From contig PFWU01000049.1 of NCBI GenBank assembly GCA_002791295.1, positions 231-47,044 of the forward strand: DNA of 46,814 nt. Direction: 5' to 3'. The stretch comes from Candidatus Uhrbacteria bacterium CG_4_9_14_3_um_filter_50_9 (GTDB lineage Bacteria > Patescibacteriota > Patescibacteriia > UBA9934 > GWF2-40-263). Position numbers and translations under genes: made by a program. Positions 7,970-39,130 of this stretch are shown here, in pieces; positions within the stretch are counted from its first letter, which is position 1, and each line of letters begins with the position of its first letter. Under the pieces are notes generated by a model, which was given only the letters and a program-made list of their open reading frames with translations, was not told where the DNA came from and made no database searches.

Positions 7970-8056
7970 TGGTGCGCAGAAGAGGACTCGAACCTCCAAG
8001 CCCCGAAGGGCACTAGCCCCTCAAGCTAGCGCGTATACCAATTCCGCCATCTGCGC
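7970..8056 (-). tRNA. tRNA-Leu(GAG), CCA encoded
   Basis: Minus strand GCGCAGATGGCGGAATTGGTATACGCGCTAGCTTGAGGGGCTAG...GGTTCGAGTCCTCTTCTGCGCACCA; acceptor GCGCAGA/TCTGCGC; anticodon loop TT-GAG-GG. Confidence 0.93.
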
Positions 8057-8125
8057 ATCGGGACGCGGAGAAGCGTAACTGATTTGATCGAATGATGCAA
8101 GAGTGCTGGATGACTCCTACATTCT

Positions 8126-8169
8126 AAATGAAAAACGCGTGACCGGAGTCACACGTTTTTCATGGTGGG
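8126..8169 (-). repeat. 44-bp direct repeat copy 1 (hairpin terminator + CCCACCA)
   Basis: AAATGAAAAACGCGTGACCGGAGTCACACGTTTTTCATGGTGGG, identical to 9105-9148. Confidence 0.9.
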
Positions 8170-8276
8170 AAGCGTTCTGATACATGGAACTACTCGGGTG
8201 AGCAGACTCCGCTGGTCCTTATCTGTCTTGATTTAGATAAAAAGATTACAAGAATCGGATCTGCTTTAAAGAAATA

Positions 8277-8340
8277 GCGCACCCACGGTTAGCGGAGAGC
8301 CTCACGTAAGTGAGCTATCTCTTCGCTAGCGCGAGTGCGC
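8277..8340. other. Candidate structured element (two-tier hairpin)
   Basis: Outer GCGCAC/GTGCGC, inner TAGCG/CGCTA, apical CTCAC-GTAA-GTGAG. Confidence 0.4.
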
Positions 8341-8368
8341 GAGTTTGGTCGTTAGGACGTGGGAGGCT

Positions 8369-8590
8369 TTAGAAGGAGACCTCACCATCAACCGTAACGA
8401 ACTCGACCTCGACCTCAGGCGTGCCGTAGAAGCCATCGAACTGGTCCCGAGGGATGTCGTCCTCCTGTAGTTGGATGTTCTCGATGTCGATCTCCTCGCC
8501 GTACTTCACGACATCGAACCGCAGGTAGTATCCCGTCTGGTTCAGGCCCCGGACGAAGAGCTTCATCATGACCGCGTGCTTCTTGGACAT
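8369..8590 (-). CDS. Small acidic hypothetical protein (GC-rich unit)
   Basis: MSKKHAVMMKLFVRGLNQTGYYLRFDVVKYGEEIDIENIQLQEDDIPRDQFDGFYGTPEVEVEFVTVDGEVSF; start reassigned from 8620 because of SD GGAGGACAG-ATG. Confidence 0.65.
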   Translation of the reverse strand: MSKKHAVMMKLFVRGLNQTGYYLRFDVVKYGEEIDIENIQLQEDDIPRDQFDGFYGTPEVEVEFVTVDGEVSF

Positions 8591-8663
8591 CTGTCCTCCG
8601 TTGTTGGTTGTCTCAACCACTTACGGAGTTTGTCCGGTCGGAGAGGGCTCGCCGACCGCGGGG

Positions 8664-8915
8664 TCAGCGTTCTGTGCTGGCGGAGATCTCCTTCTGACTC
8701 AGTCGCCACATGAGAATTGCGACACGCGCGATCATGTACGTCGTGTATCCGCCGACCGCAGTGATGCCCAGCACCATGAACACGAAACCGAAGATCGGCA
8801 GCCCTCTGTTGCTGGGCTCGGAGATGAAGTTCGAGACCAACATCAACGTGCCAGCACCCAACAGGGCAGCCATGACACTGAAGATGAACGAGCAGAGCTT
8901 GTACAAGATGGCCAT
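8664..8915 (-). CDS. Small membrane protein (GC-rich unit)
   Basis: MAILYKLCSFIFSVMAALLGAGTLMLVSNF...; two TM segments; SD AAGGAGGCTGC-ATG. Confidence 0.7.
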   Translation of the reverse strand: MAILYKLCSFIFSVMAALLGAGTLMLVSNFISEPSNRGLPIFGFVFMVLGITAVGGYTTYMIARVAILMWRLSQKEISASTER

Positions 8916-9021
8916 GCAGCCTCCTTGTTTCTCGTGTAGGTGGATCCAACACGGATCTTCATCGTTTTACATGGCAGCACGACAGAGATCTGGGTTGAAG
9001 TTAGCAAATCTCGAACGACAA

Positions 9022-9050
9022 AATATACGATAAATTGACGATTTTGTCAA
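9022..9050 (-). promoter_or_regulatory. Sigma70-type promoter for 8369-8915 unit
   Basis: Minus strand TTGACA-N17-TATATT. Confidence 0.65.
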
Positions 9051-9077
9051 TCTATAACGGGATTCAAACCCTCTTCC

Positions 9078-9102
9078 GTTTGAATCCCTCAGCCCCCACC
9101 AT
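9078..9102 (+). pseudogene. Inverted partial copy of the tRNA-Val T-loop/acceptor 3' end
   Basis: GTTTGAATCCCTCAGCCCCCACCAT versus tRNA-Val 3' end GTTCGAATCCCTCAACGCCCACCAT (22/25). Confidence 0.5.
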
Positions 9103-9104
9103 AC

Positions 9105-9148
9105 AAATGAAAAACGCGTGACCGGAGTCACACGTTTTTCATGGTGGG
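9105..9148 (-). repeat. 44-bp direct repeat copy 2, overlapping tRNA-Val 3' end
   Basis: Identical to 8126-8169; includes CCA, discriminator and GGG of tRNA-Val. Confidence 0.9.
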
Positions 9149-9218
9149 CGTTGAGGGATTCGAACCCCCGGCCTACTCGGTGTAAACGAGTCGCTCTAAC
9201 CAACTGAGCTAAACGCCC
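9142..9218 (-). tRNA. tRNA-Val(TAC), CCA encoded
   Basis: Minus strand GGGCGTTTAGCTCAGTTGGTTAGAGCGACTCGTTTACACCGAGTAGGCCGGGGGTTCGAATCCCTCAACGCCCACCA; anticodon loop TT-TAC-AC. Confidence 0.94.
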
Positions 9219-9435
9219 AAGTTTGCTCCCAAATGAGCGACCTTGCCGCTTGTGGGGCCCTGCCAGCTCCTCGCCGTACCTTCTTGGTACGGTTCGGGCG
9301 CTGGCTTCCCACGACGGCAATCTCATCTCATTTGGAAGCAAACTTCACCTGGCTTCGACTATATCTAACGTTCAGCATGCTAGACCATTCCTACTTTAAG
9401 ATCAAGTCTGTATACTTAAAATAATCAAAAACAAT

Positions 9436-11271
9436 ATGAAATTGAAACAATTATCACTTCAGCATATTACTGTTAGAATTTTCCAGATTGTGAAACGGTT
9501 TCCGCTCGCCATGCTTGTGTGCGTGATCGGGACCATTACTGGGATTGTTGCGATCCACGCTGATGAGCCAGGAATTCTCCCAAACATTCTTTTAACACTG
9601 TCTTTGGCTGCGCCGATTTTTGTTTCCACGGTTCTGATACTTGGGGCAAAGAAGTTGAGTGTTCCACAGCAGTGGGTGATGAATACTGCGTTCCTTGTCC
9701 TGCTCGGTGTGTATTACGTTCTGCTCCCTGATCCATCAGAGGCCGACACGATGCTCTACATGCGTCACATCATGTGGGCTTTGGGTTTTGTGCTCTTGGT
9801 CACGTTTATCCCTTTTGTGAGCAAGAAAGGAAAGGAATCTATCCTTGCCTTCTGGCAATACAATCGAGCTCTTTTATTTGCACTTGTGCTCACGTGGATC
9901 TGGGTCGGTGCGCTCCAGGCAGGTATTTCGATTGCACTTATGTCGATCGATTTTCTTTTTGAACTCAATATTGACGGGGAACGGTACGCAGAACTTTGGG
10001 TGGTACTTGTTGGAACCTTTGCCCCACTCTTTTTCTTGAATCGTCTTCCAAAGAAACCTCAGCAACACGACACAGCACTTGCGTATCCAAAAGAAGTGCG
10101 GTTGTTCTCTCAGTTTGTTCTTGTGCCACTTGTCAGTGTCTACTTCTTGATTTTGTACGCCTACACGATTCGTATTTTGATGTTATCAGAATGGCCTGAG
10201 GGGCAGCTGGCTTACATGATTCTCGGGTTTTCATTCCTCGGTGTGCTGACGTACTTGGCGCTTTACCCATTAAGGTCAACGGTGAACTGGATCAAGATTG
10301 CTGGGACGGTGCTCTTCGCTGCCATGATCCCTCAGGTAGGCATGTTATTTTGGGCCTTGTGGTTCCGCATTTCTCAATATGGAATAACAGAGAATCGCTA
10401 CTTCGTCTTTATCTTCGGCTGCTGGCTCGTTGCCATGAGTGTCTATTTTCTTGTGAGCAAGTGGAAAGATATTCGGATCATCCCAGTTACCATTTTTCTT
10501 ATCGCATTCCTTACTTCATTTGGCCCATGGGGGGCATTCAGTGTGTCAGAACGTAGTCAGATCCATCGATTAGAAGGGCTCTTGGTGGAGAATGGGATCT
10601 TAGTTGATGGGACGATTCAGAAACTCTCCACGCCTCAGGTGACTGGAGATTCTGAACAGATATCTAAGGAAGATCAAAAGGAAATCAATGCCACTGTTCG
10701 TTATCTCTATCAAGTACATGGTTTGGATGGGATTCAGGCATGGTTCAGTGAGGACTTAGATCAAATAGATGGAGATAAACGAGGTTATCAGGGGGTTCCT
10801 AGGGTCGTTGTAGAGGAGTTGATGGGGATTCAATACCTTGATCCGTGGGAATCCTCCCGCTATGAACAGGTGCTTGTTGAAGAAGGTGACACGTTTTTTC
10901 TTCTTTCAGACGACAGAGGGGGAGCGTTTGATGTCTCAGGCTATGATGTGTTTGTCGAATCTTACACCTGGCAGGTATTTATGATTGATGAGGTTGAATA
11001 CAGGGCCGCTGTTTCTGAGGATGGAATGGGCTTTGAAATTTTTCGCGAAGAGACGCTCTTGATCAATCATTCGCTTCAGGAATTTATGGGTTCATTGGAA
11101 GGTGTTGAATACACGCGGTCTGTTTCTCCTTCAGAGATGTCTGTGATGTTTGAAAATGATCTTGTGCGTGGCCTGCTTTACATTGAACATCTGAGAGGTG
11201 AGCGTGACGAAGAGGGGAACTATGTCATCGAAGAGATGACCGGACGTCTGCTCATCTCCTTTGTTGAATAG
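9436..11271 (+). CDS. Multi-pass membrane protein, DUF4153-like
   Basis: About 10 TM segments then a soluble C-terminal domain with 'DVSGYDVFVESYTWQ'; TATACT box 19 nt upstream of ATG. Confidence 0.6.
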   Translation: MKLKQLSLQHITVRIFQIVKRFPLAMLVCVIGTITGIVAIHADEPGILPNILLTLSLAAPIFVSTVLILGAKKLSVPQQWVMNTAFLVLLGVYYVLLPDPSEADTMLYMRHIMWALGFVLLVTFIPFVSKKGKESILAFWQYNRALLFALVLTWIWVGALQAGISIALMSIDFLFELNIDGERYAELWVVLVGTFAPLFFLNRLPKKPQQHDTALAYPKEVRLFSQFVLVPLVSVYFLILYAYTIRILMLSEWPEGQLAYMILGFSFLGVLTYLALYPLRSTVNWIKIAGTVLFAAMIPQVGMLFWALWFRISQYGITENRYFVFIFGCWLVAMSVYFLVSKWKDIRIIPVTIFLIAFLTSFGPWGAFSVSERSQIHRLEGLLVENGILVDGTIQKLSTPQVTGDSEQISKEDQKEINATVRYLYQVHGLDGIQAWFSEDLDQIDGDKRGYQGVPRVVVEELMGIQYLDPWESSRYEQVLVEEGDTFFLLSDDRGGAFDVSGYDVFVESYTWQVFMIDEVEYRAAVSEDGMGFEIFREETLLINHSLQEFMGSLEGVEYTRSVSPSEMSVMFENDLVRGLLYIEHLRGERDEEGNYVIEEMTGRLLISFVE

Positions 11272-11292
11272 TGCATGTTATACTAAAGACCT

Positions 11293-11550
11293 ATGTCACC
11301 ATTTTTTCGCATACCCCTCGGACTCATTGTGATGGTTATTGGATTTTACATGGTCGCAAAGACAGGGAAGTTTATCGAATGGTTTGGTTCTATCCCGTTT
11401 GCAGAAGACAAGTTTGGACAGGGAGGCTCCTACTTCTTCTATAAACTTCTTGGAACCTTGATTGTCTTTATTGGAATCTTTATTGCAACCAATATCATCA
11501 GTGACATTCTTGGGGATCTGGCGTGCATCTTAACAAGTTGCAATCGATAA
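11293..11550 (+). CDS. Small membrane protein
   Basis: MSPFFRIPLGLIVMVIGFYMVAKTGKFIEWFG...; -10 TATACT 8 nt upstream of ATG. Confidence 0.65.
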   Translation: MSPFFRIPLGLIVMVIGFYMVAKTGKFIEWFGSIPFAEDKFGQGGSYFFYKLLGTLIVFIGIFIATNIISDILGDLACILTSCNR

Positions 11551-39001: not shown

Positions 39002-39130
39002 GGGACTGTTCCCCAATGCGATGAGATTGGCTTGAACGGGCTGTCGATCGCTGAAAACGTCCTCAAACGGACGTTGAAGCGATGACTGGGTGCCTGTGAA
39101 AGCCAAGATCGCGCATTCGGGAATAGTTCC
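39002..39130 (+). ncRNA. Candidate rod-like structured RNA (6S-like architecture), unassigned
   Basis: GGGACTGTTCCC/GGGAATAGTTCC (12 bp, two G-U), TTGGCTT/AAGCCAA, CGGGC/GCCTG, ATCGCT/AGCGAT, AACGTCC/GGACGTT nested in register. Confidence 0.4.

Follow-up and report, generated by a model that had tools for sequence, protein, structure and literature searches.

A putative CIME-like, integrase-less cassette at the 3' end of a tRNA-Val gene in Candidatus Uhrbacteria

The stretch of DNA analyzed here (the window, 46,814 nucleotides of contig PFWU01000049.1 from Candidatus Uhrbacteria bacterium CG_4_9_14_3_um_filter_50_9) carries a GC-rich insert between tRNA-Val and tRNA-Leu, enclosed by two identical direct repeats (Table 1). 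We consider it probable, at roughly 60%, that this unit is a horizontally acquired integrative cassette without an integrase of its own, comparable to CIMEs and inserted at the tRNA 3' end by an enzyme from another element or from the cell itself. Judging from comparisons with related genomes, it is one of a family of hairpin cassettes found in Uhrbacteria and their class, with a near-constant promoter and 3' hairpin around mostly unrelated open reading frames (ORFs), and these apparently insert repeatedly next to the ends of tRNA and other genes without carrying an integrase. Patescibacteria, whose genomes measure ~1 Mb, harbor many orphan genes, and how these arrived is unexplained. Since the promoter and terminator of the cassette can be searched for, and repeats mark its insertion sites, it provides a direct handle on orphan gene gain that can be tested across the class. 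We found nothing relevant on such cassettes in the literature on Patescibacteria or Uhrbacteria; as far as the searched literature goes, a cassette family of this class in which promoter and terminator stay constant is new and apparently undescribed, while this kind of element and its insertion geometry are known biology.

Repeats, insert and tRNA neighborhood

The two 44-bp copies are identical at 44/44 positions and lie 979 bp apart, with 0 such pairs expected by chance. Read in the sense of the tRNA, the repeat is made up of CCCACCA, a terminator hairpin and TTT, in that order. The proximal copy overlaps tRNA-Val by 7 nt, while the distal one holds only stub and terminator, and both the exact pair and this division of the tRNA end agree with what a sequence-only reading of the region had described. 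Further copies, which that reading had proposed to look for, were absent. The 44-mer occurs only twice in the genome (1.07 Mb, 55 contigs, 99% complete), and the tRNA end plus terminator was not found in 42 other genomes of the family with 3 mismatches allowed, which rules out a common terminator repeat. The repeat contains a whole terminator specific to this lineage, and the duplication would therefore have arisen in the lineage of the window, unless a very close lineage was the source of the cassette.

Table 1. Features of the insert and of its tRNA surroundings (positions in the window)
Feature	Position	Strand	Remarks
tRNA-Leu (GAG)	7970..8056	-	ancestral downstream neighbor of tRNA-Val
Distal 44-bp repeat copy	8126..8169	-	displaced tRNA-Val 3' stub CCCACCA and terminator
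Insert (cassette)	8170..9104	-	935 bp between the repeats
3' hairpin with U-rich tail	8268..8346	-	conserved; cassette terminator (model R1)
ORF1	8369..8590	-	73 aa, orphan; listed as 83 aa from GTG at 8620
ORF2	8664..8915	-	83 aa, hydrophobic, orphan
ORF2 ribosome-binding site	8920..8926	-	AAGGAGG, read from sequence
5'-UTR motif TGAAGATCCGTGTTGGA	8945..8961	-	also present at an array of GC-rich genes on contig C10 of this genome
Promoter TTGACA-N17-TATATT	9022..9050	-	TTGACA 9050-9045, TATATT 9027-9022; type common to many cassettes
Inverted, diverged copy of tRNA-Val 3' end	9078..9101	+	21/24 nt; score reached by 0/1000 shuffles
Proximal 44-bp repeat copy	9105..9148	-	last 7 nt of intact tRNA-Val and its terminator
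tRNA-Val (TAC)	9142..9218	-	intact target gene

On the minus strand, the insert runs from the inverted near-copy of the tRNA-Val 3' end through promoter, 5'-UTR, ORF2 and ORF1 to the U-tailed hairpin. The earlier description of a GC-rich unit with two small genes behind their own promoter was borne out (GC about 57% versus about 49% in the flanks; ORFs on the minus strand at 8915-8664 and 8620-8369), although the terminator hairpin and the inverted near-copy had both been overlooked. ORF2, probably a small membrane protein, had no relative among 194 genomes. The start of ORF1 is more likely the ATG at 8590 than the GTG at 8620, since GGAGG lies just upstream and the ATG is conserved in the homologue of Ca. 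Uhrbacteria bacterium RIFOXYA2_FULL_40_9 (G008). Comparison with this homologue gave a dN/dS of ~0.10, and such purifying selection indicates that ORF1 is a real gene, probably coding for a soluble protein predicted to be beta-rich (structure model of low confidence, pLDDT 61). Neither ORF matched known families significantly. The hairpin fold scored z -2.8 as RNA of the transcribed strand versus z -0.8 as DNA of the opposite strand. A plasmid or phage origin was considered and rejected, as the cassette had no match in plasmid records and ORF1 none in phage records.

Across the order, tRNA-Val and tRNA-Leu are adjacent, with compact spacers of 28 to 260 nt in at least 21/60 genomes, and the Val-to-Leu order of the window was found in G059 (73 nt), G029 (99 nt) and G017 (199 nt). 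The corresponding spacer in the window measures 1085 nt, or 106 nt once the insert and one repeat are subtracted. The compact spacers, seen in relatives of other species, support a putative insertion, short of the proof that a strict empty site would give. Together with the private repeat and the recurrence of ORF1 and its hairpin at an unrelated locus of G008, they support the tRNA 3'-end insertion geometry that had been proposed from the sequence, and the same geometry was met at other tRNAs (see below). Over window positions 7970-11550, the order and orientation of the two tRNA genes vary across relatives, and in several of them tRNA-Val directly precedes a homologue of the window gene at 11293-11550, which indicates that this neighborhood is often rearranged.

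A different hairpin family was observed on the 5' side of tRNA genes. A 127-nt hairpin (-82 kcal/mol, z -10) lies directly 5' of tRNA-Val (9219-9345, minus strand), a second window copy of this ~128-nt family is located at 39002-39130 (plus strand), and further copies were seen in L057 to L062, L078, L084, L086, L088, L093 to L095 and L155. The family is multicopy, with a conserved core and arms that are variable but complementary (compensatory changes at 26/50 pairs in 7 sequences), and at the gathering score nothing in Rfam matched it. Of 37 listed copies, about a dozen stand 1 to 20 nt 5' of same-strand tRNA genes, many at 1 to 10 nt, with Val, Ala, Met, Ile, Leu, Gly, Arg, Ser, Lys and His represented.

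A family of hairpin-ended cassettes

Between the window and G008, where the ORF1 proteins share 89% identity, only the ORF1-hairpin block of ~400 bp can be aligned. The hairpin was found without ORF1 in five more genomes of the family, and its identity in related genomes was 81 to 88%. A covariance model of the hairpin (R1), scanned over 384 genomes of the class and 73 of the order, matched in 35 and 29 of them, respectively, the weakest matches being possibly ordinary terminators. At most of the 47 loci examined, the hairpin ends a small ORF. GC content was 55.0% before the hairpin versus 49.2% after it (higher before in 37/47 loci), and TTGACAA was present within 1 kb upstream at 27/47 loci, against an expectation of 0.087 per kb (p about 4e-17). 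The cargo ORFs were nearly all unrelated, with similarity in four pairs only; seven of eight other cargo ORFs lacked a Pfam match, and the eighth had only coiled-coil matches below the cut-off. Constant ends with variable cargo are the striking feature of these loci.

About 40% of the window's genome was examined as stretches. On two of its other contigs, C35 (L083 1600-8600) and C10 (L088 1-2330), we observed arrays of small GC-rich genes with near-identical structured spacers of 62 to 79 nt, possibly a tandem form of the same cassette world.

Insertion ends and possible mechanism

Exact direct repeats of at least 18 bp enclose 12/48 hairpin loci versus 30/1415 control positions (2.1%) in the same sequences (p 2e-9), a count that includes related loci which are not fully independent and that is inflated by a few repeats that, in the cassette arrays of G067 and G068, represent promoters or common stretches. 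The remaining 36/48 loci had no exact flanking repeat, which weighs against reading these units as integrative cassettes. Hairpin loci also lie within 1.3 kb of a tRNA more often than expected (15/48 versus 8%), eight of the 15 at tRNA-Glu. The flanking repeats, 18 to 169 bp long, contain the ends of tRNA-Val, -Glu and -Gln, the terminator of tRNA-Asp and the 3' end of a protein gene, so that targets vary widely. Besides the window (tRNA-Val, 44 bp), clean cases are G016 (a 33-bp terminator at tRNA-Asp), G062 (18 bp at tRNA-Glu), G050:C14 (a 27-bp hairpin just downstream of tRNA-His) and G050:C54 (26 bp at the 3' end of a protein gene). The same geometry was seen in G046, where a truncated tyrosine integrase beside tRNA-Gln and the cassette behind it all stand within 18-bp tRNA-end repeats. 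At G050:C54, the proximal copy continues as VSLTSK* and the distal one as VSLTSL*, with differing codons; the insert supplies a gene end homologous to that of its target and so rebuilds the target's C terminus with synonymous codons. Regeneration of the target by the insert is a classical signature of 3'-end integration (PMC4383910). Of the tRNA genes examined, 8/124 have a downstream exact copy (at least 18 nt) of their 3' end or terminator versus 13/1500 random windows, the eight including one tRNA-Arg with a longer partial duplicate.

Other tRNA-associated arrangements were noted. In the window's own genome, an insert at tRNA-Gln (contig C9, L093 6045-6330) has an 18-bp repeat with copies less than 200 bp apart, and the two 18-nt tRNA-end copies are followed by different terminators, as 3'-end integration would give. 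Another at tRNA-Met (contig C7, L022) has a 21-bp repeat and 1.3 kb with GIY-YIG nuclease and hydrolase genes. Stand-alone GIY-YIG nuclease genes were repeatedly seen directly 3' of tRNA genes (L073 8364-8625 in G016, L022, and L044 in G023). Inverted copies of tRNA 3' regions just past the terminator occur in the window (9078-9101), after tRNA-His (L152) and after tRNA-Gln (L116, L093). They are exact over 13 to 16 nt or match at 21/24, well over the background of 5 to 7 nt, and might have arisen by template switching that extended a palindrome, or represent an att feature.

The sequence-only reading had seen no integrase in the unit, and indeed none of the insert ORFs gave a recombinase match or a recognizable transposase. 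A search of the genome for tyrosine recombinases returned a single one (one PF00589 match), XerC/D-like and on another contig (C36). As the cassette has no recombinase gene, its entry would most likely have gone through a tyrosine recombinase supplied in trans by another element or by the cell, as in CIMEs, or through an enzyme since lost. The cassette (promoter, 5' UTR, two orphan ORFs and terminator hairpin), once acquired horizontally, would have been inserted at the 3' end of tRNA-Val into a formerly compact tRNA-Val/tRNA-Leu spacer. The 44-bp repeats would be its att-like ends, with intact tRNA and terminator on one side and displaced 3' stub and terminator on the other. An empty junction would then read tRNA-Val, one 44-mer and AGAATGTAGGAGTC, and a circle junction AGAACGCTT, the 44-mer and GTATGGTGGGGG. 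The enzyme, integration in trans and any continuing mobility are what we infer for this cassette. The arrangement at the G046 tRNA-Gln suggests that elements with an integrase once occupied sites of this kind, and its truncated integrase favors integrase-type insertion, with short-homology recombination as the main rival.

In that rival, Campbell-type or homology-assisted illegitimate recombination would have taken up DNA of a close relative in which the cassette stood beside the same tRNA end or terminator, duplicating the short identity with no dedicated recombinase. Several observations that speak against an integrase fit it well. There is none in the unit, and the genome has only the XerC/D-like enzyme. 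The diversity of repeat lengths and targets seems unlike the work of a single integrase with one site. A lineage-private terminator, moreover, should not travel in the cassette of another species, and either an in-lineage duplication or a very close donor leaves room for short-homology recombination. Some array repeats are promoters or shared terminators, as homologous exchange predicts. The extent of the identity also counts against an integrase, since in the window it begins 3 bp ahead of the discriminator and consists mostly of terminator, whereas in the tRNA-Gln and tRNA-Glu cases it covers the T-arm or anticodon loop. However, the enrichment at the 3' ends of tRNAs, where targets are regenerated, looks site-specific, as does the T-arm-to-CCA boundary of the repeats at tRNA-Gln and tRNA-Glu, and 26 to 44 bp is short for RecA-dependent exchange. 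We regard recombination of this kind as unlikely, though it deserves serious attention.

Transposition with an unusually long target-site duplication, formed in situ at terminator hairpins, has in its favor that the repeats of the window, G016 and G050:C14 are whole terminator-like hairpins and that the duplicated terminator is private to the window's genome. Yet at G050:C54 and at the tRNA-Gln insert of the window's genome, the proximal copy adjoins a gene end that is homologous but not the same, or another terminator. Simple duplication cannot produce this, and with no conserved cassette termini seen and no recognizable transposase in the unit, we consider it very improbable. A tandem duplication of the tRNA end with local rearrangement and no mobility, already raised as an option by the sequence-only reading, is slightly less credible still. 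The tRNA-Val/tRNA-Leu neighborhood is frequently reshuffled among genomes and the inverted tRNA-Val 3' copy adjoins the repeat, but duplication leaves the intervening DNA unexplained, which is foreign to the site, has a higher GC content and turns up elsewhere together with its terminator. A degenerate tRNA-Val body before the distal copy, tried as a candidate, was rejected because its alignment score was reached by 98/1000 shuffles.

A cassette economy common to Uhrbacteria and their class might be imagined, where many unrelated orphan ORFs, framed by a near-constant promoter and a constant terminator hairpin, are shuttled to tRNA and gene 3' ends. A recombinase of the cell or DNA uptake would do the work, with no enzyme from the cassettes themselves, which would be integron-like but with no integron. 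We offer this as a speculative and rather doubtful extension.

Comparison with known systems

The cassette resembles the islands at tRNA and tmRNA genes (Islander tyrosine-integrase type) in its intact tRNA, a displaced 3' fragment in the same orientation, foreign DNA between them and a regenerated target. It differs in its size of ~1 kb, in having no integrase gene inside and in a shared segment that consists of terminator plus only 7 nt of tRNA. The integrase and 2-kb filters of Islander would reject it (PMC4383910). Like CIMEs, it keeps att-like repeats around DNA with no integration or transfer genes, so that mobilization by another element is presumed. In Dehalococcoides, many island ends carry a 20-bp ssrA repeat, and some are described as lacking genes for both integration and transfer (PMC3146451). 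In contrast to CIMEs and the ssrA islands, the hairpin cassettes use many targets rather than one, are much smaller and have a constant promoter and terminator, and the sole integrase remnant is the truncated one at the related G046 site.

With integron gene cassettes they share small size, varied ORFs and a common structured 3' element. This element, however, is a transcript-strand hairpin with a U-tail rather than an attC with GTTRRRY core boxes (by eye, the base of the hairpin showed no invariant GTT core), and the cassettes have their own promoter. In the window's genome there was no integron integrase annotation, and its only tyrosine recombinase scored far below the integron-integrase cut-off. 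Phage morons are self-contained promoter-ORF-terminator units of deviant GC situated between host genes. The cassette has the same make-up, with its own promoter, ORF and terminator and a deviant GC, although it is chromosomal, between tRNA genes and with no phage genes. By analogy, it would work like a CIME or a minimal tRNA island and be built like a phage moron.
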